Assembly (NCBI RefSeq): GCF_002259605.1
Contig: NZ_MWWR01000018.1
Coordinates: forward strand, 1 to 64,000
Origin: Pseudoscardovia radai
GTDB taxonomy: Bacteria > Actinomycetota > Actinomycetes > Actinomycetales > Bifidobacteriaceae
DNA length: 64,000 nucleotides
Direction: 5' to 3'
The position numbers were made by a program, and so were the translations under genes. The notes beneath the pieces were generated by a model. That model was not told the origin of the DNA. It saw only the letters and a list, made by a program, of their open reading frames with translations, and made no database searches. The number at the start of each line of letters is the position of its first letter. Positions within the stretch are counted from its first letter, which is position 1. This document shows positions 2,932-37,482 of this stretch, one piece after another.

Positions 2932-3177
2932 GAGGGTGCACGATTTTGCACCCTCAGCGGCGGTTACCTTGCTCAATTGTGGCTTTTCCCTACCTAATCC
3001 GCACCGAGGGTGCACGATGTTGCACCCTCGGCGGCGGAAAGGGTGGGTGCGGGGCTGTTTTGAGTGGGTAATCGCCTTCGAGGGTGCATGATTTTGCACC
3101 CTCGACCGCCAATAGGGCAGAGGGAGCCGTCGGCGGATGAGGCAATCCGCACCGAGGGTGCACAATCATGTACCCTC
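2932..3177. repeat. Family A hairpin array 1 (4 units, 74-bp period)
   Basis: Four cores start at 2932, 3006, 3080 and 3154, exactly 74 bp apart. Each is GAGGGTGCA, a 6-nt loop and TGCACCCTC (the last has TGTACCCTC), i.e. a perfect 9-bp stem. Linkers carry either C-rich or G-rich sequence. No open frame across the array has coding character. Confidence 0.9.
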
Positions 3178-3509
3178 GGCCGCAATTGGCGGCGTCATGT
3201 ATGTCGTGCACCTCTGTACGTCGTGGCCTCGCTCATCCGCCTCGCTCATCCGATCAATGCTCGGAATACTCTGTCGGAAGGGTGCTGGAGTAGCGAAGGT
3301 TCTCGAGGTCGTATTTCCACAGGCGTTCCTCGGCGCGAAGATCACGTAGGGTCATGGAGGTGGTGCACTGGTCCGTGTCCATCGTATGCCGTGCTTCTCG
3401 CCTTCGACCTGCTTGGCATGCAAGCGGAGCAGTATGCGAGGCACGCCACGCAATGCCTGCGTGACATGCGCGGCGGAACATCCGGAACATCCGATGCCGA
3501 GGAGGAGCA
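3178..3509. other. Degenerate region, probable gene remnants
   Basis: No intact gene is recognised. One rightward frame ends LLGMQAEQYARHATQCLRDM and stops in an ATGA overlap with the small gene at 3510, which looks like the tail of a genuine protein whose start is lost. On the other strand a frame ending at 3254 (TLRDLRAEERLWKYDLENLR) also has protein-like composition. Both lack a credible start and are read as decayed accessory genes. Confidence 0.35.
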
Positions 3510-3593
3510 ATGAACGATATCACTTTTCTCCAAACCGTGACGACCGGATCCGATGAGCTGGACAACCAGCTTGCACAGGCCTTGAATGAGTGA
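3510..3593 (+). CDS. Very small ORF (27 aa) related to the product at 639-836
   Basis: ATG at 3510 follows a strong GGAGGAG ribosome site at 3501-3507. The peptide MNDITFLQTVTTGSDELDNQ and seven more residues (TVTxGSDELDxxLxxALN core) matches the C-terminal 26 residues of the product at 639-836 at more than half of positions. The start overlaps the stop of an upstream, probably broken, reading frame. It may be a functional mini-protein (good ribosome site, conserved core) or the remnant of a duplicated gene. Function unknown. Confidence 0.4.
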   Translation: MNDITFLQTVTTGSDELDNQLAQALNE

Positions 3594-4135
3594 AGTCGCA
3601 ACGGCCGCTGCGCGCATGGGGCATGGCTGCACGGCGATTATTCATTAACCGCGGAAAGAAGGAAACGCTGGAGATGCGAATCCCTGGGCGGTTTTCTGTG
3701 GGGGGGGGGTATCGTATCTGGCGAGTGGATCCGTTTCGGATCGTGCTGTCTCATGCGCAACATCGCGGGAGTGTAGGGGATGCCGAGCGTGGCTCCGGTG
3801 GGTGTTCGCAGGGATGTGTGCGACGGCATGCAGGGCATGCGCGCGTCGGGCATCGTTCCGCTGCAGGATGCGGCGGAGGCGGTGCCCGTTTTCGTTACGC
3901 CTGGCTTCCGGTTTGGCCCACCCCTGGCCTCGGCTTGGTATCGAGCGGAGCCGGGGCGGATCTTCCCCGATAATGGCCGCCGTGAGCCTTCCCGGCACCA
4001 AGGACTGTAAGATGGAACGCAGCGATGCACAATCGCCCGGTCTTCTGCGTCGTTCCGGCGCAAGGCGGGACGGATGCGCGTGGTGAGCGTTTCGACAATG
4101 GGGAGGAGCGAGGGCTCCGAAAAGGAAGGACAGTC
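3594..4135. other. Intergenic region without a recognised gene, with a 10-G tract
   Basis: About 540 bp with no frame of convincing coding character. It includes a run of ten G residues (3700-3709) directly followed by TATCGTATC, similar to the ATCGTA motif found in other gaps of this window. The last 40 bp carry the ribosome site AAAGGAAGGA of the FHA gene. Confidence 0.5.
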
Positions 4136-4507
4136 ATGACTCAGGTGACCCCGAGGATGCCATTCGTGAATGCGGCACAGCCGAAGCTGGTGCTTCGTTT
4201 TTCCAACGGACGCGTCGCTTCGTTCGCGGGGCGCAACGTCGTCGGCCGTGTGAAGCCCGAGAAGGGAGCCGACTACACCGGGCATATCGTGCTTCGTGAC
4301 GACTCGCACGAGATTTCCCGCCAGCATTTCGAATTCGGCACGACCAGCAAGAACCGCGCATGGGTCATGGACCTGGGCTCTTCCAACGGCACATGGTTGA
4401 TTCACAGGGGTATGAGCATCGAGCTCAAGCCGAACGTCAAGGTGGTGGTTATCCCCGGCGATTCGATTCGCCTCGGGGCTTTCCATGCCGATGTCAGCAT
4501 CGCGTAA
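4136..4507 (+). CDS. FHA-domain protein (123 aa)
   Basis: Single forkhead-associated domain with the classical phosphothreonine-binding residues: GR in FAGRNVVGRVK, S-R-Q-H in HEISRQHFEFG, and SSNGT in DLGSSNGTWL. FHA domains bind phosphothreonine peptides made by Ser/Thr kinases such as PknB and often act in actinobacterial cell-wall or division control. There is no second domain, membrane segment or signal peptide, so it is a free-standing cytosolic adaptor. The start at 4136 is chosen because GGAAGGA lies 5-6 bp upstream; the frame is open further upstream without a ribosome site. It is transcribed alone, convergent with the M13 peptidase gene. The partner kinase is not in the window. Confidence 0.85.
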   Translation: MTQVTPRMPFVNAAQPKLVLRFSNGRVASFAGRNVVGRVKPEKGADYTGHIVLRDDSHEISRQHFEFGTTSKNRAWVMDLGSSNGTWLIHRGMSIELKPNVKVVVIPGDSIRLGAFHADVSIA

Positions 4508-4577
4508 CCGGTCGCAGTCCTAGGAGCCCTAGGCGCCGCGCGTGCCTTCCCGGTGGTGCCCTCCCGGTGGCCTGCGC

Positions 4578-4610
4578 GTCTGAGGCGGTGGGCTTCCCGC
4601 CGCCTCAGAC
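4578..4610. terminator. Bidirectional hairpin between convergent genes
   Basis: A perfect 11-12 bp stem, GTCTGAGGCGG with CCGCCTCAGAC and a 10-11 nt loop, sits between the convergent FHA and peptidase genes. There is no clear T-run on either side, so rho-independent activity is uncertain. Confidence 0.55.
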
Positions 4611-4630
4611 CGTTCGGGCGGTGCCCGGCT

Positions 4631-6748
4631 CTACCAGATTCTCACGCGGCGGTCGGGGTCGAGCCACATGGCGTCGCCCGGCGCGGTGCCGAAGGCCTCA
4701 TGGAAGAGGTCCACGTTGCGCACGATTCCGTTGACGCGGAACTCGGCGGGGGAATGCGGGTCGATCTGGAGGAACTGCTCGGCCAGCTCGTTGCGGATCT
4801 TGGTGCGCCAGATCTGCGCGTAGCTCAGGAAGAAACGCTGCAGGCCCGTGAACCCGTCCATCACCGGGGCGTGGGAGAGGGCCGCGCGCACGGAATCCAG
4901 GCCGCCGTCCGCCGCGCCGAGCGACAGCGCATACGCCTTGAGCGCGATGTTCACGCCGCCCAGGTCACCGATGTTCTCGCCGATCGTCAACGCGCCGTTC
5001 ACATGCGGCGCATCGTCGGGCCTGCCCTCCTCCTCGTATTTCTCGCGCAGCTGCAGCGGAACGAACGAATCGTATTGCTCGATCAGCGTATGCGTGCGCT
5101 GATCGAAATTCGCGCGGTCCTGCGCCGTCCACCAATCGTGCAGGCGTCCGTCGCCGTCGTATTTGCTGCCCTGGTCGTCGAAGCCGTGGCCGATCTCGTG
5201 GCCGATCACCGCGCCGATGCCGCCGTAGTTCGCGGCGTCCTCGGCCTCGGGGTCGAAGAACGGCGGCTGCAGGATGGCCGCGGGGAACACGATGACGTTC
5301 AGAGTCGGCTCGTAGTACGCGTTGACGGTCTGCGGCGTCATAAGCCACTCGTCCTTGTCGACGGGCGTGCCGGCCTTGCTCAGCTCGTAGCCGTTCTCGT
5401 AGCGGTTCGCGGCGCGCATGATGTCGACGAGCGAATCGCCGTCGGCGACGCCGAAGGCCGAATAGTCGCGCCAATGGTTCGTGTACCCGATCTTCGGCTC
5501 GAATTTGTCGAGCTTCTCCAGCGCCTTGCCCTTCGTCTCCTCGCCCAGCCAGTCGCTGGCCTGGATCGAGGCGCGGTAGGCGTCGATGAGGTTGGCCACG
5601 AGCCGCTCGACGCGCTTCTTCGATGATGCGGGGAAGTGGCGGCGCACGTACTCGCGTCCCACGTCCTCTCCGCACACGCCGTCGACGAGGCCCACGGCGC
5701 GGCGCCAGCGCTCGCGCTGCTCCGTGGTACCGTGCAGGGTTTTGCCGTAGAAGTCGAAATGCGCCTGGTCGAAGGCCTTGTTCAGGTACGTGGACCACCC
5801 GATGAGCTCGTGGACGCGGGCCCACAGCTTGAGGTCGTCGAGCGTGGCCTCGCGCCAGAACGCGGCGATGCCGGTGATGAAGCTCGGCTGGTGCACGATG
5901 GTGTGGGAGAGCACGGCGCGCAGGTCCAGCGGCATGGCGCTCGCGGCGGCGGAGGCATCGTAGGCCTTCTGCCAGGCGTCGAGCCACGGGTCGATGTCGA
6001 AGCCGTCGAGTTCGGAGAGCAGCCTGTCGGCGTCATAGGGGTTGTACGTCTTGTCTTCGTCGCGGGAGCTGACGTTGTCCCAGTGGTTCGCGGCGATGCG
6101 GGTCTCGACGGCGAGGAAGCGCCTGGCGTCGTCCATGGCCTCGGCGGGGCTGGGTGCGTAGCCGGCGAGATGCAGCATCTGCGCCACCATCGACACGTAG
6201 CTGGAGCGCACCGGGGCGAAGCGCTCCTCGCGGTAGTAGCCTTCGTCCGGCAGGCCGAGGCCCCCCTGGAACAGATGCACCACGTTCGTGCCCGCGTTGC
6301 CCGGGTCGGAGTAGATGGCGACGCCGATCATGCCGGGGCCGCCGGAAACGGACAGACCGCCGAGCACCGCGTGCAGCGCGGCCTTGCTCGGCGCGTTGTC
6401 GATGGCGTGCAGGTCGTCGACGATGGGTGAGATGCCTGCCTCTTCGAGCGCGGCGGTGTCGAGGAAGGCGTCGTAGACGGTGCGGGACAGCGTGCACGGC
6501 GCGTCGGGGTCCTCGAGGATCTCGCGCAGCTGCGCCTCGGCGTCCTCGCTGAGCTTGTTGAACGATCCGTAGCGTGCGTGGTCGGCGGGAAGCGCGTAGG
6601 CGTCGATCCACGGGCCGTTGACGTAGCGGTAGAAATCGGAGGTCGGCGCGATAACCGATGAGAAAGCGCTGGCATCGATGCCGGAGGTCTGTGCTGCGCT
6701 CTCCCCGGAACCGGGAGTGCGCGAGGGGGTCATGGCTGATGTTGTCAT
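4631..6748 (-). CDS. pepO: M13-family (neprilysin/PepO-type) zinc metallopeptidase, 705 aa
   Basis: Endopeptidase that cleaves peptides of limited size; the bacterial PepO members are mostly cytosolic. Diagnostic features are HEIGHGFDDQG at about residues 515-525 (two zinc His and catalytic Glu), the NAYYEPTLNVIVFP substrate-binding stretch just before it, and GENIGDLGGV after it, which supplies the third zinc ligand Glu. The N-terminal PTSDFYRYVNGPWID block is the usual M13 amino end. There is no signal peptide or N-terminal anchor, which supports a cytosolic enzyme that recycles imported peptides. Length is normal for the family. The start at 6748 is the first ATG; an internal ATG five codons later is possible. 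Transcribed alone. Confidence 0.93.
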   Translation of the reverse strand: MTTSAMTPSRTPGSGESAAQTSGIDASAFSSVIAPTSDFYRYVNGPWIDAYALPADHARYGSFNKLSEDAEAQLREILEDPDAPCTLSRTVYDAFLDTAALEEAGISPIVDDLHAIDNAPSKAALHAVLGGLSVSGGPGMIGVAIYSDPGNAGTNVVHLFQGGLGLPDEGYYREERFAPVRSSYVSMVAQMLHLAGYAPSPAEAMDDARRFLAVETRIAANHWDNVSSRDEDKTYNPYDADRLLSELDGFDIDPWLDAWQKAYDASAAASAMPLDLRAVLSHTIVHQPSFITGIAAFWREATLDDLKLWARVHELIGWSTYLNKAFDQAHFDFYGKTLHGTTEQRERWRRAVGLVDGVCGEDVGREYVRRHFPASSKKRVERLVANLIDAYRASIQASDWLGEETKGKALEKLDKFEPKIGYTNHWRDYSAFGVADGDSLVDIMRAANRYENGYELSKAGTPVDKDEWLMTPQTVNAYYEPTLNVIVFPAAILQPPFFDPEAEDAANYGGIGAVIGHEIGHGFDDQGSKYDGDGRLHDWWTAQDRANFDQRTHTLIEQYDSFVPLQLREKYEEEGRPDDAPHVNGALTIGENIGDLGGVNIALKAYALSLGAADGGLDSVRAALSHAPVMDGFTGLQRFFLSYAQIWRTKIRNELAEQFLQIDPHSPAEFRVNGIVRNVDLFHEAFGTAPGDAMWLDPDRRVRIW

Positions 6749-7010
6749 GACACCAGCCTAGCCCGTGGCCCGTTCATTCGCCGTCGTTTTCGTCCCATAC
6801 GGCAGTGATTGCGCCGAGCGCGAAGGACGGCGCCGTGCGGGCTGTTTCGCGGCTGCGGGGCGGTCGGGAGTTCGCGGGGCGCGGGTATTGTGGTATGGCC
6901 GCGGTTCGCGTGCGGGATGGCCGTGGCCTGATTCCGCCGGGGCATCGCGGGCGCAATCGTGAAAACCACAATCGTGGAGACAACAACGCAGAAGCGGACG
7001 GAGGAGGACG
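6749..7010. other. Divergent intergenic region pepO/mntP
   Basis: About 260 bp between divergently transcribed genes. I looked for a manganese riboswitch of the yybP-ykoY type before the exporter gene and did not see its conserved loops. The ribosome site GGAGGAGGA lies just before 7011. Confidence 0.4.
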
Positions 7011-7742
7011 ATGGAAGGTTTGCTCAGTGCTTATGTGTGGCTGCTGGCGCTGTCGGTGTCGATGGACACCTTCGCCATGTCGATGTCGCTGGGCCTGCGC
7101 GCGGGGCATGTTCCCGAGCGGGGCTACGTGCGCACGGCCGCGGCGTTCGCCGGCATGCAGACGCTGTTCCTGTGGCTCGGTTCGCTGATCGGTGACGCGG
7201 CGGCGCCCTTCGTCGGCGGCACGTCCTGGGTGGTGTGCGTGCTTCTGGCGGGAATCGGCGCGTGGATGATTCATGAGGCCCTCGAGGACGAGGACGAGGA
7301 TGAGGTGGACGAGCGCGCGGAATCCGAGCAGACTCAGCTCGAATCCGAGGACCTCGACCGCAAACTCGCCGCCGAGATGCGCGAATACGCGGACAGGAAG
7401 ACGGGGAACGCCGCCGACGCGGCCGCCGACGAGCGCATCGTGGAGCAGCTCAGCGGGGAGCGGGAGGCCGCATCGCTGCGCGTGCGCTCCACCTTCGCGT
7501 GGAAGGTGCTTCTCACGCTCGCCGTGGCCGAGAGCATCGACTCCCTCGGCATCGGTGCGACGCTCGGCCTCGGGCGCACGCCGATGGCATCGTATGTCAT
7601 CGCCATCTTTGCCATGACCGCGCTGTCATGCGTCCTCGGCCTGCTGTTGGGTGGCAAGCTGGGGGAGAAGTGGAAGAAAGGCGCCGGCGTTCTCGGAGGC
7701 ATCATCCTCATTCTTCTGGGCATCCGACAGGTTATCGCGTAG
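7011..7742 (+). CDS. mntP: MntP-like manganese efflux pump with long acidic loop
   Basis: Six-TM inner-membrane exporter of the MntP/YebN family, expected to expel Mn(II). Hallmark Asp-containing helices are present in both halves: ALSVSMDTFAMSMSLG (residues 12-27) and LAVAESIDSLGIGATLGLG (about 170-190), which are pseudo-symmetric. The notable feature is the central loop at about 85-155, which begins EALEDEDEDEVDERAES and is much longer and more acidic than in the E. coli protein; it could be a cytosolic metal sensor or sink. GGAGGAGGAC precedes the ATG. Transcribed alone, divergent from pepO. Family assignment is firm; substrate specificity is from family knowledge. Confidence 0.87.
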   Translation: MEGLLSAYVWLLALSVSMDTFAMSMSLGLRAGHVPERGYVRTAAAFAGMQTLFLWLGSLIGDAAAPFVGGTSWVVCVLLAGIGAWMIHEALEDEDEDEVDERAESEQTQLESEDLDRKLAAEMREYADRKTGNAADAAADERIVEQLSGEREAASLRVRSTFAWKVLLTLAVAESIDSLGIGATLGLGRTPMASYVIAIFAMTALSCVLGLLLGGKLGEKWKKGAGVLGGIILILLGIRQVIA

Positions 7743-10362: not shown

Positions 10363-10468
10363 GGCGGGTGTGGTGGCACCCGTTTAAGGCGGTTTTGGGT
10401 TAGTTATTGACGATTTTCCTGCTGAGATGCTGTTAGGCGGGTGTGGTGGCACCCGTTTAAGGCGGTTT
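10363..10468. repeat. Family C hairpin pair (2 units, 73 bp apart)
   Basis: A 33-bp sequence starting GGCGGGTGTGGTGGCACCCG and ending TTTAAGGCGGTTT occurs at 10363 and again, identical, at 10436. Its core CGGGTG-6 nt-CACCCG is a short hairpin. The spacing matches that of families A and B although the sequence differs. Confidence 0.85.
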
Positions 10469-10525: not shown

Positions 10526-10607
10526 AACAATGTGATGGGTTGCGGACATTTTCGGGGGATTTTGCGCCTTTGCGGGTCCGTTTTTGTCCGTAAGGCATCA
10601 CATTGTT
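10526..10607. promoter_or_regulatory. Long interrupted inverted repeat, 12+6 bp stem
   Basis: AACAATGTGATG at 10526-10537 pairs with CATCACATTGTT at 10596-10607, and CGGACA at 10543-10548 pairs with TGTCCG at 10585-10590, with symmetric 5-nt internal loops and a 36-nt apical loop. It could be a cruciform operator pair or a structured RNA. AACAATGTG recurs at about 16226, 85 bp before gabT. Confidence 0.6.
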
Positions 10608-10723
10608 ATTGGGGGAGGGGGCGCGTGATTGGAGCCGGCCACGGAGCGGGCCGCGGTGCTCGATTGAGCGCGGTGTCCGGCATGTGGAACGATGCGCGGA
10701 GTGGTGCGCGCTGCTTCAATCGT

Positions 10724-15452: not shown

Positions 15453-15527
15453 GCGGTGTGGGGCGGGGCTGGCGTGTGGCGCCGGTTACCTCTCCGGATC
15501 CCGGCCTGGATGCCCCTAACCGCTGTC

Positions 15528-15849
15528 GAGGGTGCACGGGATTGCACCCTCGGCGGGGATTACCCTCCTCAAACCCGCTCTCACTCCGCCTAACCGCGGT
15601 CGAGGGTGCACGATTGCGCACCCTCGGCGGGGATTACCCTCCTCAAACCCGCTCCACTCGCTCCTAACTACGGTTGAGGGTGCACAATTCTGCTCCCTCG
15701 GCGGGGATTGGGGGGCGGGAAGCGGGGTGTTGGGGGAGGCTATCTGCGCTTGAGGGTGCACGGGATTGTGCCCTCGGTGGCGGATGGGTTGCCTGGGTGT
15801 GGCTTTGGGCGGGGTAATTGCGGTTGAGGGTGCGTGATTCTGCTCCCTC
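15528..15849. repeat. Family A hairpin array 2 (5 units)
   Basis: Cores start at 15528, 15602, 15676, 15752 and 15826 (74, 74, 76, 74 bp). The first two have near-perfect stems; the later ones are decayed on the right arm (TGCTCCCTC, TGTGCCCTC). It fills the gap between the GNAT gene and the gabT leader. Confidence 0.88.
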
Positions 15850-16312
15850 GGTGGCGGTTAGACGCGGGAAGCGCCTGTGCATTGACCGCCACCATCAGGA
15901 AATCGTCGAACTCCGCTGGAAAACAGCGCCGCATACGAACATCGCAGAATCGTGTATCCGCGGCGGCGTTCACACAGCGGACGCCCGGCACCCGGCGCGA
16001 ACCGCGCGCACGCGGGGGAGAACGGGAAAATCGTATGCCTTCCGCGCAGCCGCCGGTACAGCGGAAAGCCTTGCGAACAGGCGCCTTCCGGGGGTCCTTC
16101 GAAGCCGCCGCCGCGCGCACGCCTCCGCGCCGTTACGACACAAATGTTTCGGGTAATTCACGCCTGTTTCGGCAAGGAAACGACACCGTTTCGGGGAGGC
16201 GCAGGGAGGGCAATGCGCGGGTGGTAACAATGTGCTTGTCAGAAAAACGGCGACGAAATCCGAAGGATCGCGCCACCGTGGTTGCGAAATCACAAATCAA
16301 GGAGATACAGCG
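15850..16312. other. gabT leader region
   Basis: About 460 bp without a supported gene. It holds GGGAAAATCGTATGCC at 16024-16039, a short dyad GAAACG-ACAC-CGTTTC at about 16178-16193, AACAATGTG near 16226 (shared with the inverted repeat at 10526) and the ribosome site AAGGAGATACAGCG. Together these suggest dedicated control of the aminotransferase gene. Confidence 0.45.
16024..16039 (+). promoter_or_regulatory. GGGRAWATCGTATGCC motif copy 2
   Basis: GGGAAAATCGTATGCC, 290 bp before gabT. It matches 14 of 16 positions in the copy at 10724 and, inverted, 15 of 16 in the copy at 39558. Confidence 0.4.
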
Positions 16313-17677: not shown

Positions 17678-17848
17678 GGCGCGGGTGCTGGGGCGGCGGC
17701 TGACATTACGATTTTCCCGCCGCACACGGCATCGCTGACCTGAACCGGCGTCGGCGGTCCATCACGATGATGGGCCCCGGCGCCGGTTTCCGCGTTTGGG
17801 GGAGGCGATCGATTCTCCGGTGCGCCTGGCGGGTCGGGGCGAACGGTC

Positions 17849-17946
17849 GAGGGTGCACGGGACTGCACCTTCGGTGGCGGTTAGGGCTATGGGGGGCGCC
17901 TGGCGGTGGGGTAATTGGGGTTGAGGGTGCGCGGGACTGCACCTTC
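17849..17946. repeat. Family A hairpin array 3 (2 units, 74-bp period)
   Basis: Cores start at 17849 and 17923. Right arms are TGCACCTTC, so the terminal two pairs are weakened. Lies between the convergent gabT and dapD genes. Confidence 0.85.
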
Positions 17947-18039
17947 GGTGGCGGTTAAGGCTCCGGGTGGCGCCTGGCGGTTATGTCACCGGGTGGGAGT
18001 GCGGCGGCCGGCGGGGCGGGATGACAGCGGGAGAATCGT

Positions 18040-19290: not shown

Positions 19291-19430
19291 CGTCGCACCG
19301 CGGCTTGTTCGCTTAATCGTGAGTATATTACGGGCGTTGTTTCGCGGCCGCGACCGTCCGCGCGCGGATGATGGCGTTTCTGTTTGTCGGCTTTCTGTAC
19401 TTGTGCTGAGTTTCCCGTCCTTCGACGGTC

Positions 19431-19825
19431 GAGGGTGCACGATTGTGCTCCCTCGGTGCAGGTTACCCTTCTTGAACCCGGTCTTGCCCCGCCTAACTCT
19501 GGTCGAGGGTGCACGGTTGTGCACCCTCGGTGGGAGTTAGGGCGATGGAAGGCGCTGGTGGGGAGGTTAATCGGGGTTGAGGGTGCACGATGGTGCGCCT
19601 TCGGTGGCGGATAGGTGGGTGGAAGAGACTCTGGGATGGGGTGATTGGTGTTGAGGGTGCACGATGGTGCGCCTTCGGTGGCGGTTAGTGTGCCGGGAGG
19701 CGCCGATGGTGGGGGTAATCGGGGTTGAGGGTGCGCGATGGTGCGCCTTCGGTGGGGGGTTGGGGTGCCGATTGGGGTTTGGCGGTGGGGTAATCGGGGT
19801 CGAGGGTGCAGTGTTGTGCGCCTTC
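19431..19825. repeat. Family A hairpin array 4 (6 units, strict 74-bp period)
   Basis: Cores start at 19431, 19505, 19579, 19653, 19727 and 19802. The second has a perfect stem; others have TGCGCCTTC right arms. Located between divergent dapD and prfB. Confidence 0.9.
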
Positions 19826-19932
19826 GGTGGCGGTTAGGTCGATGGGAGGCGCCGACGAGACCGGCCGACGGCGGGCGAGGTGGGGAAATCGTGATGGAAC
19901 CCCGCTCCGCGTGCATGGTAGGCGGTTCCCTG

Positions 19933-21083: not shown

Positions 21084-21289
21084 GCCGCGTGGCGTGAAGG
21101 CGGGCGGGGCGCCGGGAAGGCATACGATGGCCCCGTCGGTTTTCGACGATTTCCCGTTCGACGATTTCCGATAATTCATCCCCGGTTCGCCGGGACCGAT
21201 AACCGGCCCGGCGACACCTCCGGCCCATCCGGCACACCCCGGCCCCTCCGGCACAGGCATCCACGCCAGGAATCAGAAAGAGCGTAACC
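21084..21289. other. prfB-ftsE spacer with direct repeats
   Basis: Contains GGCATACGATGG at 21119-21130 and two copies of TCGACGATTTCC (about 21145 and 21159), then the short hairpin CCCGGTTCGCCGGG. A promoter for ftsE is not obvious. Confidence 0.4.
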
Positions 21290-28929: not shown

Positions 28930-30815
28930 TGTGCGGAATCGTAGGATACGCGGGACCCGCTCCCGCCAATGCAAAGCCTTTGGAAGTGTGCCTGCAGGGC
29001 CTCAAGCGTCTGGAATACCGCGGATACGATTCCGCCGGCGTCGCGCTTGCCGCGCCCGGCATGGACACCGTGGTCTTCAGGAAGAAGGCGGGGCGCCTCG
29101 ACAACCTCGTCAAGGAGACGCAGCGCAGCCCCATGCCCGACGCGACCGTCGGCATCGGCCACACGCGCTGGGCCACGAACGGCGCGCCGAGCGACGTCAA
29201 CGCACACCCGCATATCTCGCAGGACGGCAAGATCGCGCTGATCCACAACGGCATCATCGAGAACGCCGCGCAGCTCAAGTTCGAGCTGCAGGCCGAGGGC
29301 TACTCCTTCAGCTCCGGCACCGACACCGAGGTCGCCGCCAAGCTGCTCGGGAAAATCGCCAACCAGGTCATCGACGAAACCGGCACGCCCGACCTCTTCG
29401 AGGCGCTGCGCCGCGTCTCGCGCATGTTGTCCGGCGCCTTCACGCTGCTTGCGGTTGACGTGCGCCAGCCCGATATCGTGGTCGGTTCGCGCCACGATTC
29501 GCCGCTCGTCGTGGGCCTCGGCGACGGCGAGAACTTCCTGGGCTCCGACGTCGCCGCGTTCGTGGCCTACACCAAGAACGCGCTCGAGCTCGGCCAGGAC
29601 GAGGCCGTGTGCATCAGCGCCGGCAGCGTGACCGTCACCGATTTCGACGGCAACCCCGTCGAGGCCAAGCCGTTCACCGTGGACTGGGACGCCTCCGCCT
29701 CCGAGAAGGGCGGCTGGGATTCGTTCATGGACAAGGAGATCCACGAGGACCCGGAGGCCGTGCGCAACACGCTGCTCGGGCGCGTGGACCTCGACGGGCG
29801 GCTCAACCTCGACGAGCTGCATATCGACGAGAACGCGTTCAAGTCCATCGACAAAATCATCGTGGTGGCCTGCGGAACCGCATCGTACGCGGGAATCGTG
29901 GCCAAATACGCGATCGAGCACTGGGTGCGCATCCCGGTCGAGGTGGAACTCGCCAGCGAATTCCGCTACCGCGACCCGATCCTCACGCCGCGCACGCTCG
30001 TCGTCGCCATCTCGCAGTCCGGCGAGACCATGGATACGCTGATGGCGCTGCGCCACGCGCGCGAGCAGGGCTCGAAGGTGCTCGCCATCTGCAACACGCA
30101 GGGCAGCTCCATCCCGCGCGAATCCGACGCCGTGCTGTACACGCACGCCGGCCCGGAGATCGCCGTCGCCTCTACGAAGGCCTTCCTTGCGCAGATCACC
30201 GCCGCCTACCTGCTCGGCCTGTACCTGGCGCAGACCAAAGGCACCATGTACCGCGACGAGATCGGCAACACGCTTGAGGCGCTGTCGCAGATGCCCGAGA
30301 AGATCCAGTGGGTGCTCGACACGCAGCCGCAGACGATCCACGACACCGCGCGGCGCATGGTCGACGCCCATTCCTTCCTCTTCCTGGGCCGGCACGTGGG
30401 GTACCCGATTGCGCTCGAGGGCGCGCTCAAGCTCAAGGAGATCGCGTACACCTTTACCGAGGGATTCGCCGCGGGCGAGCTCAAGCACGGGCCGATTGCG
30501 CTGGTGGACGAGGGCGAGCCGGTGGTGGTGATCGTGCCGCCGGCGCGCGGGCGCAACATTCTGCACGCAAAGGTGATGAGCGCCATCGAGGAGGTGCAGG
30601 CGCGCGGTGCCTTCACGATTGCCGTGGCCGAGGAGGGCGACGAGGACGTGGCGCAGAAGGCCGACGTGGTGTTCTGGCGTCCCGAGTGCCCGACGCTGAT
30701 GAGCCCGCTCGTGGATGTGGTGCCGCTGCAGCTGTTCGCCATGGACATGGCGATGCTCAAGCATTACGACGTCGACAAGCCGCGCAATCTCGCCAAATCG
30801 GTGACCGTGGAGTAG
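28929..30815 (+). CDS. glmS: Glutamine-fructose-6-phosphate aminotransferase (isomerizing)
   Basis: First committed step to UDP-GlcNAc for peptidoglycan. The start is fixed by the N-terminal nucleophile: ATG then TGC, giving MCGIVGYAGPAPANAKPLEV, where Cys becomes residue 1 after Met removal. The glutaminase domain has HTRWATNGAPSDVNAHPH and the NGIIEN motif; the two SIS isomerase domains follow (VACGTASYAGIVAKYAIEHW, SQSGETMDTLMALRHA, and KEIAYTFTEGFAAGELKHGP). 628 residues, normal length, ending KPRNLAKSVTVE. No glmS ribozyme is seen upstream, and a leaderless transcript would exclude one. Confidence 0.97.
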   Translation: MCGIVGYAGPAPANAKPLEVCLQGLKRLEYRGYDSAGVALAAPGMDTVVFRKKAGRLDNLVKETQRSPMPDATVGIGHTRWATNGAPSDVNAHPHISQDGKIALIHNGIIENAAQLKFELQAEGYSFSSGTDTEVAAKLLGKIANQVIDETGTPDLFEALRRVSRMLSGAFTLLAVDVRQPDIVVGSRHDSPLVVGLGDGENFLGSDVAAFVAYTKNALELGQDEAVCISAGSVTVTDFDGNPVEAKPFTVDWDASASEKGGWDSFMDKEIHEDPEAVRNTLLGRVDLDGRLNLDELHIDENAFKSIDKIIVVACGTASYAGIVAKYAIEHWVRIPVEVELASEFRYRDPILTPRTLVVAISQSGETMDTLMALRHAREQGSKVLAICNTQGSSIPRESDAVLYTHAGPEIAVASTKAFLAQITAAYLLGLYLAQTKGTMYRDEIGNTLEALSQMPEKIQWVLDTQPQTIHDTARRMVDAHSFLFLGRHVGYPIALEGALKLKEIAYTFTEGFAAGELKHGPIALVDEGEPVVVIVPPARGRNILHAKVMSAIEEVQARGAFTIAVAEEGDEDVAQKADVVFWRPECPTLMSPLVDVVPLQLFAMDMAMLKHYDVDKPRNLAKSVTVE

Positions 30816-30881
30816 TCGAGAGGGGCTGGGGCGCGCTGGCGCGACGGCGGGGCGGCGCGACGGCCTGGCCTAATCGGGGTC

Positions 30882-31863
30882 GAGGGTGCACGGAATTGCA
30901 CCCTCGACCCCAATTACTCTGCACAATCCCGGCTTTTCCCTGCCTAATCGGGGTCGAAGGTGCACGATGTTGCGCCTTCGGTGCGGGTTAGCCCATCTTT
31001 CCTTGGTCGATTCCTCCCTATCCCCGGTCGAGGGTGCACGATTTTGCACCCTCGGCGTGGGTTGGGTGGGGAGAAGGGGTGGCGGGGAAGGGTTATTGCG
31101 GTCGAGGGTGCGGGAATTGCTCCTTCGGTGGCGGTTAGAGGAGGAAAAGGGCTGTCAAGGCGAGGTATTTGGGGTCGAGGGTGCACAATCTTGCACCCTC
31201 GGTGCTGATTGCCTCACATTTCCTCAGCTTTTTTGCGCTAACGGTGGTCGAGGGTGCACGGAATTGCACCCTGGGTGCCGGTTACCCCGCTTAATTCCGG
31301 CTTTCCCCACCTATTCCCGTTCGAGGGTGTACGATTTTGCACCTTCGACGCGGGTTATCCCGTCTTTCTCTGGCCGATACCGCCCTAATCGGGGTCGAGG
31401 GTGCATGATTGTGCTCCCTAGCGCGGGTTGAGTAGGGAAGAGGGCTGTTGGGGTGGGGTATCTGGGGTCGAGGGTGCAGGGAATTGCTCCTTCGGTGGCG
31501 GTTAGAGGAGGAAAAGGGCTGTCAAGGCGGGGTATTTGGGGTTGAGGGTGCACGATGTTGCACCTTGGGTGCCGGTTACCTTGCCCGATCCCGGCTTTTC
31601 CTGGCCTAATTGGGGTCGAGGGTGCACGGAATTGCACCCTCGGCGTGGGTTGGGTGGGGAGAAGGGGTGGTGGGGAAGGGTAATCGTGGTTGAGGGTGCA
31701 CGATTGTGCTCCCTCGGCGTGGGTTGGGCGGGGAAAAAGGGTGGTGGGGAAGGGTTATTGCGGTCGAGGGTACATGATGTTGCACCTTGGGTGGCGGGTA
31801 CCTTGCCCGATCCCGGCTTTTCCTGACCTAATCGGGGTCGAGGGTGCACGATGTTGCGCCTTC
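30882..31863. repeat. Family A hairpin array 5 (14 units, 73-74 bp period)
   Basis: Cores start at 30882, 30956, 31030, 31104, 31177, 31250, 31323, 31397, 31470, 31544, 31618, 31692, 31766 and 31840. Stems range from perfect (30882, 31030, 31177, 31618) to decayed. Linkers share array-specific wording, for example CCCGGCTTTTCCYKRCCTAA and GGGGAGAAGGGGTGG. Confidence 0.92.
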
Positions 31864-32001
31864 GGTGGCGGGTAGGAGAGGACAGGGGATTGGGAAGGGT
31901 CGCAGAATGGGAAACGGCCCACATAGTGAACTTGGCGCGTCGCCCCGGCGATCCCATACGATGAATAGCGCGCTTCGGGAGTACGGCGGGCGGACGGAAG
32001 G

Positions 32002-32018: not shown

Positions 32019-32049
32019 GGTGTGAATTTGAGATGAACGCGTCATCTTC

Positions 32050-32148: not shown

Positions 32149-34350
32149 ATGCAGTGGGATTTGCAATGTGCTGGAACAGTTCTCCACGTCCCGGGACTGA
32201 AGGATTCCAAGTACACGCGTGGCGTGGTTGCTTTCGTCACGGGATCGGAGCGATACCCGGGTGCCGCGCTGCTCGGCGTGTCGGCCGCCACTCAGACGGG
32301 CGCCGGCTACGTGCGCTACGTGGGTCCGCGCCGCTGCGAGGACGCGATCCTTGCCGCGCATCCCGAGGTCGTGTTCGGCGAGGGAACGGCGAACGCCTGG
32401 GTCGTGGGCTCGGGCATGGACAGCGCCATCGCCGAATCGGGCCGCCGCACGCTTATCCTGTCGCTGCTGCCCGGCTCCCTCGTCACCAAGGACCGCGGCC
32501 GTGACGGCGCCATGCCGTTCATCGTCATGGACGCCGGCGCCCTCGGTGCGTTCTACACCGCCGCGAAGTCCGCGCCGGATTCGCCGGTTATCGCGCGCAC
32601 CGTCATCACGCCGCATTCCGGCGAGGCCGCCGCGCTCGCACGCGCACTGGGCTACGACGTGCACCACGGCGAGGTCGAATCGTCTCCCCGCATCTGGGCG
32701 CAGATCCTTGCCGACCGCCTCGGCTGCGTATGCGTGCTCAAGGGCTCCGACACCGTCATCGCCACCGCCAACCGCCCGGGCGACCTGCTCGAATACACGC
32801 AGGGCACGCATTGGCTCGCCACCGCCGGCACGGGCGACGTGCTCGCCGGCGTCATCGGCACCATCGTGGCGCAGAACGCCGCACGCATCGACGCGGGTGA
32901 GCTCACCCTCGCGCAGGCCGCGGCGACGGGCGTCGCGCTGCATGGCCTCGCGGGCGCGCTCGCGGCACACGATGCCATGGCCGTGTGCGCCATGGGACTC
33001 CTCCCGTTCATGGTCACCACCAACGGCGGTCCGATCAACGCCTCCGACGTCGTCTCCTGCCTGCCGCTTGCATACGAGACGATTGCCAACCCCAACGAGG
33101 GAACGTACGCGCGCATCCGCGCCATCATCGATCCGACCGGCGAGATCGAGCGCAAGTACCGCGCGCTGTTCGCGCCTGCGGAGCCCGAACCCGCCGCCGG
33201 CCAGTTCGGTAAGCCCGGCCAGGGCGGTGCGCCCGCCGGCTGGCCCGCCGCACCGCAGGACGGCGGCGCCGCAAACCCTCCGTCTGACGGTCGCGTGGTC
33301 CCGGACTTCGGTACGCCCGCCCGCCCGACCGTCGTCGCGTGGGCCGGATCCGGCCGCATCGTGATCCCCGGCTCGCAGGCGCGTCCTGCGTCCGCGCTCG
33401 AGGAAACCGCCGCTCCCTCCGCCTCCGCCGTGGCATCCGGCTCCGGCCGCATCGCGGTGCCCGGCTCGCAGGCCCCGAAGGCCGCGAAGGGCGGTTCCGG
33501 CCGCATTGCAGTTCCGGGTTCCCAGGCGCCGAAGGGTGGTTCTGGCCGCATTGCCGTTCCTGGCTCGCAGGCTCCCAAGGGTGGCTCGGGCCGCATTGCC
33601 GTTCCTGGCTCGCAGGCTCCCAAGGGCGGCTCCGGTCGCATCGCCGTTCCGGGCGCGCAGGCCGCGAAGGCGGCCAAGGGCGGTTCGGGCCGCATCGCGG
33701 TGCCCGGCGCCCAGGCCCCGAAGGCCGCGCCCGCTCCCGCCAAGCCGGCGGCGCCCGCCGTGCGCAAGGGTGGTTCGGGCCGCGTGTCCGTGCCCGGTTC
33801 GCAGGTGGTGGATGTGTTCTCGTCCACGATTCGCACGCTGCCCGGCAAGGGCGGCTCCGGCCGCGTGTCCATCCCCGGCTCCCAGATCCGCACGTTCACG
33901 CACGAGCGCTATGTGATCCCCGCCCCGGGTGCCGGCGCTCCGTATGCCGCCTCGCAGGACGGCGCCCCGTTCGGTGCGGCCGAGCGCTTCGTGCCCGGTT
34001 CCTTCGCCCCGGATGCCGCGCAGTTTGGCACGTCTGATGCCGCGGGCGCCGTCGCGCAGCCCCAGGCGCAGCAGCCTGCGCCCGAACCCGCTCCGGCCCC
34101 GGTTCCGCCCAAGCCGCTTCCAAACGTCGTGACGGAGGAACAGCAGGACGACGGCACCGTCGACATCGTGGTGCCCATCCGCTCCGCCGCCGATCCCGCC
34201 GCGGCCCCCGTCAGCGTCTCGCGTTCGCGCTCGCGCGTGTACGATCCGAACGGAGACGCGCTGCGCCCGCTCACCCCGCCGGCCATGAAGAAGCCCGGCG
34301 CCGATCCCAAGGCTGCCGACGCGGCCGCCGGCGAGGCCGAAGGCAAGTGA
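32149..34350 (+). CDS. nnrD: ADP-dependent NAD(P)H-hydrate dehydratase fused to a nine-fold SGRI-repeat tail (733 aa)
   Basis: Residues 1 to about 340 are a ribokinase-fold NAD(P)HX dehydratase, which repairs hydrated NAD(P)H: YTRGVVAFVTGSERYPGAALLG, RTVITPHSGEAAALARALGY and LATAGTGDVLAGVIGTIVA (catalytic GTGD) are diagnostic. No epimerase (YjeF_N) half is attached. From about 340 on is a low-complexity tail with nine copies of G-S-G-R-I/V-x-V/I-P-G-S/A-Q (about 400-575), most spaced by APKGG, followed by a Pro/Ala-rich stretch and a C-terminal segment with DGTVDIVVPIRS and SVSRSRSRVYDPNG. ATG 32149 follows GAGAGGGAGAG; an ATG at 32128 lacks a site. The tail's role is unknown. rluA overlaps the stop. 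Confidence 0.88.
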   Translation: MQWDLQCAGTVLHVPGLKDSKYTRGVVAFVTGSERYPGAALLGVSAATQTGAGYVRYVGPRRCEDAILAAHPEVVFGEGTANAWVVGSGMDSAIAESGRRTLILSLLPGSLVTKDRGRDGAMPFIVMDAGALGAFYTAAKSAPDSPVIARTVITPHSGEAAALARALGYDVHHGEVESSPRIWAQILADRLGCVCVLKGSDTVIATANRPGDLLEYTQGTHWLATAGTGDVLAGVIGTIVAQNAARIDAGELTLAQAAATGVALHGLAGALAAHDAMAVCAMGLLPFMVTTNGGPINASDVVSCLPLAYETIANPNEGTYARIRAIIDPTGEIERKYRALFAPAEPEPAAGQFGKPGQGGAPAGWPAAPQDGGAANPPSDGRVVPDFGTPARPTVVAWAGSGRIVIPGSQARPASALEETAAPSASAVASGSGRIAVPGSQAPKAAKGGSGRIAVPGSQAPKGGSGRIAVPGSQAPKGGSGRIAVPGSQAPKGGSGRIAVPGAQAAKAAKGGSGRIAVPGAQAPKAAPAPAKPAAPAVRKGGSGRVSVPGSQVVDVFSSTIRTLPGKGGSGRVSIPGSQIRTFTHERYVIPAPGAGAPYAASQDGAPFGAAERFVPGSFAPDAAQFGTSDAAGAVAQPQAQQPAPEPAPAPVPPKPLPNVVTEEQQDDGTVDIVVPIRSAADPAAAPVSVSRSRSRVYDPNGDALRPLTPPAMKKPGADPKAADAAAGEAEGK

Positions 34351-35312
34351 CCTCCGGCCATCACCGCTGGGTGGTGAGCGAACCTGACGTTCCCGACGAT
34401 ATCGGCATTCTCTATGAGGATGCCGATATCGTCGTTCTGGACAAGCCTCACCTGCTGCCCACCATGCCGCGCGGCATGTGGTACCGCCACACCGCGCTGA
34501 TGCGCCTGCGCGAGATGTACGGCGACGATGCCATCGTGCCCGCGCACCGCCTCGACCGCGCCACGGCGGGCGTTGTGGTTTTCGTGCGCACGCCTGCGCT
34601 GCGCGGCGCGTTCCAGACGCTGTTCCAGGAGCGCCGCGTGCGCAAGGTGTACGAGTGCATCGCGCCCTGCGCGCCCGTGCGCCTGCAGCGGCGCGGCGCG
34701 GTCGGCGGCGTGCGCGAGGCGGCGGAAAGCGAAGGGTCCACGATGGCGTCGCCGAGACGAGGAAGATCACCGCACGAGCCGGTTCTTCCGCCTGTGCGCG
34801 ACATCGTGGCGCAGGCGCGGCGCGTGCCGTCGATCGCCGACATCCCCGGCGTGCGCCTCGGGCCTGTGGGAATCGTGACGCCGCTTGACCCGCCGCGCGC
34901 GTTCCCGTTGATGCGTCGCTCGCATATCACGAAGCTGCGCGGTGTGCTCCAGGCCTTCGAGGAGCCGGGCGAGACGAATGCGGTGAGCGTCATCGGTCTG
35001 TGCGACGACCAGACCGCCGTGCGTCGGCGTGACGAGACAGGGGAGCGGGTGGCGCTCGCGCCCCTGGGATTGCGGGCGTATCGCTTGGAGCCGCGGACCG
35101 GGAAAACGCACCAGTTGCGCGTGCACATGGCCGCGCTGGGGCTGCCGATTCTCGGCGACGATATGTATCCGCGCGTGCTGGATCCTGGTCGGGGAGACCT
35201 TGACGATTCCGCCGCGCCGCCCCTTCAGCTCGTTGCGCGCGAGCTGCGCTTCTCCGACCCGCGCGACGGAACGCCCCGGGTTTTCCGCAGCCGCATTCCC
35301 CTCGCGGTGTGA
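34347..35312 (+). CDS. RluA-family RNA pseudouridine synthase
   Basis: Isomerises uridine to pseudouridine in rRNA or tRNA. Catalytic Asp lies in AHRLDRATAGVVVFVRT (motif HRLDxxTSG), and the C-terminal KTHQLRVHMAALGLPILGDDMYP block is the other family signature. The central part has an insertion relative to short RluA members (LQRRGAVGGVREAAESEGST and following). No S4 RNA-binding domain. Begins with GTG at 34347 inside the GTGA overlap with the nnrD fusion stop, so translation is coupled. The exact target site cannot be stated. Confidence 0.9.
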   Translation: MTSGHHRWVVSEPDVPDDIGILYEDADIVVLDKPHLLPTMPRGMWYRHTALMRLREMYGDDAIVPAHRLDRATAGVVVFVRTPALRGAFQTLFQERRVRKVYECIAPCAPVRLQRRGAVGGVREAAESEGSTMASPRRGRSPHEPVLPPVRDIVAQARRVPSIADIPGVRLGPVGIVTPLDPPRAFPLMRRSHITKLRGVLQAFEEPGETNAVSVIGLCDDQTAVRRRDETGERVALAPLGLRAYRLEPRTGKTHQLRVHMAALGLPILGDDMYPRVLDPGRGDLDDSAAPPLQLVARELRFSDPRDGTPRVFRSRIPLAV

Positions 35313-35391
35313 GGTGTTGCGATGCGGCGGGGCCGGCGTCGCGCCATCGTCGCTTTCCTTCGCTCGCCGCCGCAACATCGTCGCATTCGCC

Positions 35392-35405
35392 TACACTGAG
35401 CGTAT
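35392..35405 (+). promoter_or_regulatory. -10 box for a leaderless transcript upstream of coaX
   Basis: TACACT at 35392-35397 stands 6 bp before the ATG at 35404, which opens a small ORF that runs into coaX. Confidence 0.4.
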
Positions 35406-35547
35406 GCCGACCGGGCAGCGTATGCGCGCTCGAGCCGGGCCCGCACCAGCCGCGTCGCACGGAGCGCGCCAGTCGCGCAGCCGCGCCGCCTCGCGCCGCA
35501 GTCGCAACCGCCGTAGTTGCAGCATCCGAAGCAGGGAGGACACATGA
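35404..35547 (+). CDS. Arg-rich small ORF (47 aa) coupled to coaX
   Basis: The frame begins MPTGQRMRARAGPAPAASHG and continues RSRAASRRSRNRRS, with more than a quarter Arg. Its TGA overlaps the coaX ATG as ATGA, and a -10 box sits right before its ATG, so it would be translated from a leaderless message and hand ribosomes to coaX. The composition is consistent with chance in GC-rich DNA, but the placement argues for a leader ORF. It could sense arginyl-tRNA or simply couple translation. Confidence 0.35.
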   Translation: MPTGQRMRARAGPAPAASHGARQSRSRAASRRSRNRRSCSIRSREDT

Positions 35548-36332
35548 TCGTCGCAGTGGACATCGGCAATACGAATATCGTCCTGGGATTCATCGAGGAT
35601 GACGAAATCGTCGCCACCTACCGCATCTCCACCCAGTCCACGCACACGGCCGACGAATACGGCCTCATGCTTGTGCAGTTCCTCGCCATGAGTGGGTACA
35701 AGACCAAGGACGTCGACGGCGTCATCATCTGCTCCGTCGTGCCGCAGGTCATGCACTCGTTCCGCGCGAGCATCGTGAACTTCTTCGGCATCGACCCGAT
35801 GATCGTAGGGCCGGGCGTCAAAACCGGCGTGAACCTGCGCATCGACGACCCCAAGACCATGGGGACCGACTGCATCGTCAACTGCGTGGCGTCGTATTAC
35901 CTTTACGATGGCGCGAGCCTCGTCATCGATATGGGCACGGCGACCACCTTCAACTACATCGACGCCGACGCCAACATCCGCATGTGCGTCATCGCGCCGG
36001 GCATGCAGACCTCCGCGCATGCGCTTGCGGGCGACACGGCGCAGTTGCCGAACGTGGAGATTGCGCGCCCCGCGTGCGGCATCATGGCCACGAACACGGT
36101 GGCGTCGATCCAGTCGGGGCTGTATTACGCGGCGCTCGGCGGGCTGGAGAAAACCGTGGAGGTGTGCCACGAGCAGATCGGCGCGCCGTTCACCGTGGTG
36201 GCGACCGGCGGATTCTCCAACCTGTTCAAAGGGCAGACCGACGCGATTGACGTTTTCGACCCGGACCTCATCTTCCGTGGGATGAACCTCATCTACAAGC
36301 GCCAGAAGCAGCGTCCCCGCCGCCGCGAGTAG
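35544..36332 (+). CDS. coaX: Type III pantothenate kinase
   Basis: Phosphorylates pantothenate, the first step of coenzyme A synthesis. ASKHA-fold motifs: VAVDIGNTNIVLGF (phosphate 1), VIDMGTATTFNYIDAD (phosphate 2) and VVATGGFSNLF. Substrate region APGMQTSAHALAGDTAQLPNVE matches CoaX. 262 residues; the type needs a monovalent cation and is not inhibited by CoA. ATG 35544 follows CAGGGAGGACAC; an upstream TTG gives nine unsupported residues. Followed by array 6 with no ordinary terminator. Confidence 0.94.
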   Translation: MIVAVDIGNTNIVLGFIEDDEIVATYRISTQSTHTADEYGLMLVQFLAMSGYKTKDVDGVIICSVVPQVMHSFRASIVNFFGIDPMIVGPGVKTGVNLRIDDPKTMGTDCIVNCVASYYLYDGASLVIDMGTATTFNYIDADANIRMCVIAPGMQTSAHALAGDTAQLPNVEIARPACGIMATNTVASIQSGLYYAALGGLEKTVEVCHEQIGAPFTVVATGGFSNLFKGQTDAIDVFDPDLIFRGMNLIYKRQKQRPRRRE

Positions 36333-36342
36333 CGCGGTGTCG

Positions 36343-37482
36343 AGGGTGCGCTCCTTCGGTGGCGGTTGCTTCTGGGGCGGTTACCTGTCCGGTTTCCCTA
36401 TTCTGATGCCCTATTCCCGGTCGAGGGTGCACGGTTGTGCGCCTTCGGTGGCGGTTACTTGTCCGATTCCCCCAATCCGCAGCCCTAATCCCGGTCGAGG
36501 GTGCACGGTTGTGCTTCTTTGATGGCGGTTAGGCGCGGTGTCGGCGGCTGTGTGGGTTGTAGTTGGGGTCGAGGGTGCACAAAAGTGCTCCCTCGGTGGC
36601 GGTTGCATGTCCGGTTTCCCCGATTTGGTGCCTTAACCCGGGTCGAGGGTGCATGATGGTGCTCCCTCGGTGGCGGTTATGGCGGTGTGGGGCTGTGTTG
36701 GTGGAGGTAATTGGGGTTGAGGGTGCAGGGTTGTGCTCCCTCGGTGGCGGTTGCCTGTCCGATTGGCTCTTTCCTAGGCCCTAACTCCGGTCGAGGGTGC
36801 ACGGGAGTGCTCCTTCGGTGGCGGTTGCCTATCCGATTTCCTCTTTTCCGGGCTCTAATCCCGGTCGAGGGTGCACGGTTGTGCTCCTTCGGTGGCGGTT
36901 ACCTGTCCGATTTCCCCAATCCGCAGCCCTAATCCCGGTCGAGGGTGCACGGTTGTGCTCCTTCGGTGGCAGTTAGGGTGGCGTGAGGCCGTGTTGGTTG
37001 GGGTAGTTGGGGTCGAGGGTGCAAGGTTGTGCGCCTTCGATGGCGGTTAGGGCAGCGGAGGGGCGTTTTCGTTGGGGTAATTGGGGTCGAGGGTGCACGG
37101 GAGTGCTCCTTCGGTGGCGGTTGCCTGTCCGATTTCCCCAATCCGCAGCCCTAATCCCGGTCGAGGGTGCACGGGAGTGCTCCTTCGGTGGCGGTTACCT
37201 ATCCGATTTCCCCAATCCGCAGCCCTAATCCCGGTCGAGGGTGCACGGTTGTGCTCCCTCGGTGGCAGTTAGAGTGGTGGAGGGGTGTTTTGGCTGGGGT
37301 AATTGGGGTTGAGGGTGCACGATGGTGCGCCCTCGGTGGCGGTTACTTGTCCGGTTGGCTCTTTCCTGGGCCCTAACTCCGGTTGAGGGTGCAGGGTTGT
37401 GCTCCCTCGGTGGTGGTTAGGGCAGCGGAGGGGTGTGTTGGCTGAGGTAATCGTGGTCGAGGGTGCACGATGATGCGCTCTG
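36343..37482. repeat. Family A hairpin array 6 (16 units, 74-bp period)
   Basis: Cores start at 36343, 36423 and then every 74 bp through 36497, 36571, 36645, 36719, 36793, 36867, 36941, 37015, 37089, 37163, 37237, 37311, 37385 and 37459. The first is shortened. Most right arms are TGCTCCTTC or TGCTCCCTC, so inner stems are decayed while outer arms (CCGCAGCCCTAA against TTAGGGCAGCGG) still pair. Linkers are of C-rich (CCTGTCCGATTTCCCCAATC) or G-rich form. Confidence 0.92.

Follow-up and report, generated by a model that had tools for sequence, protein, structure and literature searches.

Parts of Nunvar et al. (2010, PMC2817692) describe bacterial interspersed mosaic elements (BIMEs) as high-copy clusters of intergenic palindromes that vary in length between strains, are linked to REP-associated tyrosine transposases (RAYTs) and carry their repetitive extragenic palindromes (REPs) in alternating orientation; BIME-2 is reported there as a strong binder of gyrase, and in Stenotrophomonas the segments between REPs vary substantially in length. 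Passages of Bertels & Rainey (2011, PMC3116915) report for Pseudomonas fluorescens SBW25 REP doublets of 71 and 110 bp, GI-GIII tandem arrays of 72 and 112 bp, two tandem arrays of 12 REPs, REPINs that are mostly singlets, a link between REPs and RAYT genes, and arrays that point forward on one side of the genome and in reverse on the other. Here we describe family A, a family of tandem palindromic arrays in a 64,000-nucleotide stretch of Pseudoscardovia radai (contig NZ_MWWR01000018.1, positions 1 to 64,000, referred to as the window), and follow it through the window's genome (G000), P. suis DSM 24744 (G001), Bifidobacteriaceae bacterium UBA2724 (G002) and a fourth genome of the genus (G003), all from assemblies that are 82-92% complete. 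It is tentatively suggested that family A consists of genus-specific, replication-polarised and spacing-constrained intergenic arrays that act as DNA, perhaps as phased protein sites. What was directly observed is the anatomy of the unit, its narrow step, spacers that diverge widely from array to array, a polarity that most of the testable arrays follow, loci shared between genomes, one difference of a whole unit and no detectable covariation.

Family A works like a REP array, and the REP, BIME and REPIN elements are its nearest kind, but it is not filed here as one because two defining features fail, namely the RAYT, for which three of the four genomes give no match, and alternating orientation. 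It has the REP-type trait of high-copy, imperfect intergenic palindromes. As far as the passages cited go, it resembles the SBW25 arrays in having extragenic palindromes at fixed distances and a regional array direction (PMC3116915), and BIMEs, including E. coli BIME-2 and the REP clusters of Stenotrophomonas and Xanthomonas, in forming high-copy clusters of intergenic palindromes of variable length (PMC2817692). Unlike the SBW25 REPs, family A is found in Actinobacteria, keeps a single 74-bp step through as many as 24 units in its largest array, and has linkers that differ widely between arrays; unlike BIMEs, its units do not alternate (436 of 453 point in the direction of their array) and its linker length is nearly constant. 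The foot of a REP hairpin carries a conserved tetranucleotide of the GTAG or GGAG type; counts of the corresponding columns in family A give G/C-T-A-A and not GTAG.

Two further systems bear comparison. Plasmid iterons and centromere-like arrays are direct, helically phased repeats of a protein site, each confined to one locus close to rep or par genes; family A, by contrast, is dispersed through intergenic gaps, in the window often beside housekeeping genes. Arrays of clustered regularly interspaced short palindromic repeats (CRISPR) combine a palindromic repeat with a spacer of constant length, as family A does with its linker, but family A is present as dozens of arrays with biased linkers that recur within arrays, and Cas1 is inconsistent, being found in G000 and G003 and giving no match in the incomplete assemblies of P. 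suis and UBA2724. The original prediction had called the arrays REP- or BIME-like in style, with an unusually strict period and no named counterpart, and this description holds. Rfam recovered a single tRNA from the window, with two sub-threshold matches in the sixth array; the exact core pattern had no match in viral contigs, the sixth array had none in plasmids, and we found no description of such arrays in the open-access literature. As an interpretation, the prediction is partly supported.

Unit structure and spacing of family A

The window contains 48 units of family A in six intergenic arrays, made up of 46 pattern matches and two decayed units. A scan allowing up to 5 mismatches gave 47 matches, of which 46 were kept in six clusters (2859-3177, 15528-15849, 17849-17946, 19431-19825, 30882-31863 and 36423-37482); a lone match at 30547 was discarded, as it lies within a predicted gene (28986-30815). 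Decayed units at about 31104, also detected by the covariance model, and at about 36342 bring the fifth and sixth arrays to 14 and 16 units. With up to 3 mismatches 44 cores are found, against a mean of 0.07 (maximum 1) in 100 dinucleotide-preserving shuffles. The six arrays of 4, 5, 2, 6, 14 and 16 units that had been proposed are thus borne out, with a total of 48 rather than 47 because a decayed unit at 2859 precedes the proposed start. All of the arrays fall outside predicted genes, as had been claimed, and the claimed spacing was reproduced: steps between successive units are 73-76 bp, most often 74, and the one 80-bp step corresponds to the decayed unit at about 36342. Higher-order periods of 148, 222, 296 and 367 bp are also seen.

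Across the stretches fetched from the four genomes, a position matrix that yields zero hits in reversed sequence at the same threshold recovered 453 units in 69 arrays. Each unit is a palindromic core of 46 bp followed by a linker of 28 bp. The 46-bp consensus comes from 291 units, with replication strand as the sole guide to orientation, and its symmetry is by construction. Among 384 steps, 284 are of 74 bp, 62 of 73, 18 of 75 and 9 of 71, 72 or 76, so that 373 fall within 71-76 bp (mean 73.87, standard deviation 0.56); the remaining 11 are longer (83-147 bp), eight measuring 83-113 bp and three 146-147 bp, the latter fitting a missed unit. The short-step and linker identity statistics exclude these 11 steps of more than 80 bp. 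The original prediction had also described pairing outer arms, CCGCAGCCCTAA and TTAGGGCAGCGG. This pairing is not supported, and only their TAA and TTA belong to the core.

In 284 of the 373 short steps the linker measures 28 nt, and linkers are either purine-rich or pyrimidine-rich in composition. Their sequence has diverged widely: linkers of the same class are 0.42 identical between arrays, against 0.37 when shuffled. The two classes are not one linker in two orientations, as reverse-complement identity in the window's genome is 0.392 within arrays (n=137) and 0.394 between them. In array-free orthologous intergenic DNA we counted 0.096 indel openings per substitution (44 to 456), using the 17 of 38 array-free gap pairs that are more than 60% identical. 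Simulation at this rate, with indel sizes chosen by assumption, gave equal linker length in 0.10-0.31 of comparisons at 0.5-1.5 substitutions per site, compared with 0.61 observed, or 0.575 when the long steps are counted as unequal. It follows from this excess that either linker length is held while its sequence drifts, or the length is set by a ruler when the unit is created.

The units had been proposed to be hairpins, yet pairing could not be established as a conserved feature. In the 46 window units 86.8% of positions expected to pair do so, against 87.3% in shuffles, and among 425 distinct units from the four genomes there is no excess of compensatory changes (Watson-Crick plus G.U pairs, z = -1.3). 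An apparent excess in the inner stem of 444 distinct units disappeared once 19 misregistered units out of 451, whose arms differ from the consensus, were dropped, and it was equalled by control partners slid two columns. This similarity filter may also discard compensated units; in the remainder, pairing persists at 26 of the 35 pairs changed on both sides. Mismatches in the stem, read on the + strand, are far more often G.U (1860 cells) than A.C (304), but this bias does not require pairing, as a bias to G/T appears column by column. The lack of covariation means that conserved DNA sequence and spacing fit better than a conserved RNA hairpin. G-quadruplexes were also considered and set aside; motif counts on the + strand have no consistent excess over shuffles (20 against 13.0 in G000, 6 against 10.8 in P. 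suis and 0 against 2.8 in UBA2724).

Direction, gene neighbours and distribution of the arrays

To infer the leading strand around each array, third-position GC skew was compared between genes of the two strands; 13 of the 69 arrays have too few genes on one strand for such an estimate. Of the 56 testable arrays, 46 run with the inferred leading strand (the nominal p of 1e-6 is too small because orthologous arrays were counted separately), as do 37 of the 40 where the skew value |r| is at least 0.02. The leading strand is usually the G/T-rich strand of family A. Units of opposite sign occur in 10 of the 69 arrays, clearly so in 4. None of the nine contigs of the window's genome that carry family A (31 arrays) mixes directions, and both directions are found on P. 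suis contigs C1 (NZ_PGFC01000001.1) and C4 and on UBA2724 contig C10. Changes within the palindromes run toward G/T on the leading strand (2247 from A/C to G/T, 1154 the reverse), and base-composition skew may contribute to the polarity without explaining all of it. A pure mutation artefact was rejected: in the 40 arrays with |r| of at least 0.02, the cores are 0.62 G+T, against 0.54 for intergenic DNA without arrays from those regions.

Gene orientation was compared for the 57 arrays flanked on each side by a gene no more than 800 bp away. Of these arrays, 21 run along both genes, 18 lie in convergent and 13 in divergent gaps, and 5 are antisense to both genes; in all 4 of the last group for which skew could be estimated, direction matches the inferred leading strand. 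To be set against this are three arrays that follow both neighbouring genes and have negative r (-0.009 to -0.031). Array-free gaps of at least 250 bp near arrays, oriented by leading strand, divide into 63 along, 15 convergent, 39 divergent and 24 antisense. The ratio of convergent to divergent gaps is therefore shifted from 15:39 to 18:13 (Fisher p 0.010), which indicates that arrays tend to avoid gene starts, although they are not confined to 3' ends. In 23 of 69 cases the array begins no more than 100 bp from a same-direction stop codon; a strict element of the 3' untranslated region (UTR) is excluded by the divergent and antisense arrays.

The window illustrates this variety, with all six arrays on the + strand and gene positions taken from our own simple gene caller; 9 of the 10 array-adjacent genes given to Pfam matched a family. 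The first array (2847..3189, 5 units, the first decayed) starts 7 bp past the stop of a + gene at 2129-2839 that has no Pfam match. The second (15516..15862, 5 units) lies between genes for a GNAT acetyltransferase and a class-III aminotransferase, both on the + strand, and the third (17837..17959, 2 units) in the convergent gap between that aminotransferase and a THDPS-like succinyltransferase on the - strand; UBA2724 also has 2 units at this site. The fourth (19419..19838, 6 units) occupies the divergent gap between the THDPS-like gene (-) and a peptide chain release factor gene (+), both with Pfam matches on those strands, and the same site in UBA2724 has 2 separated units. The fifth (30870..31876, 14 units, one of which, at about 31104, has a shortened loop) follows a glutamine amidotransferase/SIS (GlmS-like) gene (+), and the sixth (36333..37495, 16 units, the first decayed at about 36342) begins where a type III pantothenate kinase gene (+) reaches its stop codon. 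Repeats of 45 and 54 bp at 33487-33725 lie inside an open reading frame (ORF) that encodes an NAD(P)H-hydrate dehydratase domain and are probably a repetitive protein stretch.

Family A is present in all four Pseudoscardovia genomes, with only 7 matches in G003. In a search with a covariance model (R1, from a 49-column alignment of the 46 window units), 51 of 55 other relatives gave no match and 4 gave one weak match each; unit counts from this model are lower bounds, as the best 150 candidates per genome were scored (best 102 in the 59-genome search). The exact palindrome pattern was found in 33 contig stretches, six of them within the genus (P. suis DSM 24744 and UBA2724), and arrays were inspected in those six. 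True arrays were seen in the genus Pseudoscardovia only. In the window's genome the stretches read contain 170 units in 31 arrays on nine contigs, and the genome-wide pattern gives 118 forward and 65 reverse matches, with some palindromes counted on both strands. Draft assemblies probably under-count the units, given that contig ends in UBA2724 (C5, C6, C9 and C12, the last being DEKK01000006.1) and in G003 (C70) fall in or near arrays. For comparison, 400 kb of four other Bifidobacteriaceae genomes contain one tandem repeat with a period of at least 40 bp, a repeat of 98 bp (score floor 120).

Unit number differs at shared loci, the comparison of copy number that had been proposed for the arrays. 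Beside the same 448-codon gene there are 2 units in the window's genome and 23 in P. suis, and other shared loci have 6 and 5 units, or 3, 2 and 3. A 10-unit array of the window's genome (C35:4565) has no counterpart in the gap of about 220 bp between the same genes in P. suis. At C35:23135, where the flanks are near-identical in three species, P. suis is one unit short, by 74 bp relative to UBA2724 and 73 bp relative to the window's genome. Much of a stretch of about 1.5 kb at this locus (C35:23070-24560), which includes a SUKH-family (SMI1_KNR4) gene, shows 97-100% identity among the three species. Conservation this strong had suggested selection, a reading that was rejected because identity over such a stretch makes recent transfer the likely source.

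Further palindromic families with similar steps

Family B, a palindromic tandem family with no sequence relationship to family A, has a similar organisation around a different core. The window holds two arrays on the + strand, one of 6 units (54242..54627, steps of 73, 72, 72, 72 and 72 bp) and one of 5 (55862..56175, steps of 73, 72, 72 and 72 bp), which bracket an ORF whose DUF559 match falls below the cut-off. Its pattern matches number 52 forward and 76 reverse in the window's genome and 4 in UBA2724, with none in P. suis or G003. Among the 100 listed of the 128 matches in its own genome, spread over 15 contigs, no contig is mixed, and the same holds by array majority for 26 arrays on 12 contigs in the stretches read, which were picked around family A arrays and are not a random sample. 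There, 75 of 88 steps are of 72 bp, with 9 of 73, 2 of 71 and 2 double. Families A and B run in the same direction on six of the seven contigs known to carry both (C6, C9, C10, C31, C32 and C33).

Families C, D and E have few units. Family C occurs in the window as a pair 73 bp apart (10365..10468, +) and as three units on C9 of the same genome (30155 onward). Family D consists of palindromic units 71-72 bp apart at P. suis C1:718885 and 720063 and, among the stretches read, was seen only in P. suis; family E has three units, with steps of 72 and 70 bp, at UBA2724 C9:21702. A strict search for hairpin runs found no further families; these were picked up instead through the lags between repeated 11-mers in the gaps. 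Apart from family A, such lags include a group at 71-74 bp, with 30-32, 36, 84 and 95 bp also common. Repeats of other kinds were noted as well: elements of about 85 bp resembling miniature inverted-repeat transposable elements, with inverted ends around AACAATGTGATGG (window, about 10526-10608; C6, about 21190-21276), a tandem family around ATGTGTGAGTGGCGGCTGGCACATT that is irregular, its periods being 84, 117 and 201 bp (P. suis C4:120411 and 137398), and a tandem repeat of about 95 bp that is rich in purines (C35:51098-51372).

Possible functions and their significance

It is suggested here, with the caution due to a reading favoured only tentatively, that the arrays act as DNA. The 46-bp palindromic element would most simply be a site of symmetric form for a protein, and the 28-bp spacer after it is conserved far more in length than in sequence. 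With a mean step of 73.87 bp, or about seven turns at 10.55 bp each, neighbouring elements would face almost the same side of the double helix. The arrays would gain and lose whole units, and their direction would be tied to replication, with polarity either serving replication or resulting from it. By analogy with BIME-2, the phased sites may be read by a protein of chromosome organisation or topology, such as gyrase or a nucleoid protein.

Several observations weigh against this suggestion. No protein is known, or was found, for family A. The eight steps of 83-113 bp in P. suis and UBA2724 depart from the ruler, and linkers of the same class are 0.54-0.60 identical within arrays, which means that some equal lengths stem from duplication; the simulated excess also depends on the indel sizes assumed. 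Ten of the 56 testable arrays oppose the skew, nine of them with |r| up to 0.031 and one, at P. suis C4:55454, with 0.063, and the orthologous arrays among those counted are not independent. The conservation of the core without covariation could come from recent common origin. The weak point lies in the other families: steps of 72 bp in B, 73 in C, 71-72 in D and 70-72 in E mean that helical phasing (10.5 bp per turn) holds only roughly beyond family A, and with B, D and E at 70-72 bp rather than 7 x 10.5, each family has its own ruler. The linkers of family B are also less free, being 0.44 identical between arrays against 0.31 when shuffled, and on the seventh contig known to carry both, C12, the two families are discordant, family A lying at 26.5 kb (+) and family B at 211.5 kb (-).

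After arrays acting as DNA, the order of the explanations is satellite, mobile hairpins and RNA. It is possible, though on the whole doubtful, that family A is a selfish or neutral satellite without host function, amplified by fork slippage and unequal crossing-over and spread through rare transfer, with homologous exchange keeping the unit length. The difference of one whole unit between near-identical flanks, the contrast of 2 and 23 units at one shared locus, the higher-order periods (148, 222, 296 and 367 bp), the greater identity of linkers within arrays (0.54-0.60) than between them (0.42) and the position of arrays in gaps, convergent favoured over divergent, would all be expected of it. 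However, linkers whose identity between arrays is near random keep one length, and exchange that depends on homology should homogenise sequence too; nor does a satellite alone account for polarity in two unrelated families. That polarity, in palindromes that are intergenic and of high copy number, would suit mobile elements of REPIN or BIME type, whose single-stranded hairpins would be copied from the template of the lagging strand by a Y1 transposase (IS200/RAYT-like), either since lost or acting in trans. Transposition of the IS200/IS605 insertion sequences is coupled to the lagging strand, and the would-be lagging-strand template of family A has mainly G.T rather than A.C stem mismatches (1860 to 304), although this excess may reflect base-composition skew. 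We consider this origin unlikely: Y1_Tnp (PF01797) has no match in G000, G002 or G003 and one in P. suis, in assemblies 82-92% complete, and the P. suis gene adjoins an OrfB_IS605 gene and looks like an ordinary IS605-type element, with the nearest array among the matches listed on its contig more than 150 kb away.

More improbable still is a role in RNA, with the units as 3'-UTR hairpins that stabilise or terminate the upstream transcript. The 23 of 69 arrays that start close behind a gene of their own direction, the enrichment of convergent and depletion of divergent gaps, the weakly negative r of three arrays that run along both flanking genes, and one-sided stem changes that are mostly G.U-compatible on the + strand can be read in this way. 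Against them stand the 13 of 57 arrays between divergent genes, among them the fourth array of the window between its Pfam-matched genes, the 5 of 57 that run against both neighbours, the absence of a covariation excess in 425 distinct units, and the fact that RNA hairpins need no 74-bp ruler. A CRISPR-like array has hardly any likelihood. Its architecture of palindromic repeat and fixed-length, variable spacer is shared by family A, and two of the four genomes have Cas1; but the array-rich P. suis and UBA2724, in assemblies that are incomplete, give no Cas1 match, the spacers are purine- or pyrimidine-biased and recur within arrays, and some 30 dispersed arrays with decayed repeats are present in the stretches read of the window's genome.

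The arrays considered as sites acting in DNA can be placed in a wider, more speculative frame. Several unrelated palindromic families that independently keep to rulers near seven turns, with A and B mostly in one direction per replication arm, might represent a genus-specific system of chromosome architecture, read by one or a few dedicated DNA-binding proteins that use direction, for example in orienting segregation or in the absorption of supercoils; we regard this as unlikely. If the suggestion made here is true, the arrays, set in a genus with no REP-type transposase match in three of four genomes, bear on the choice between transposition relics, satellites and sites of chromosome proteins for such repeats. 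Spacing and polarity could then be separated from sequence, with linker length held to about 1 bp while linker sequence is widely divergent, unrelated families behaving in a similar way and two of them mostly running with replication, and family A would be a natural assay for why the palindromic repeats of bacteria keep fixed distances.

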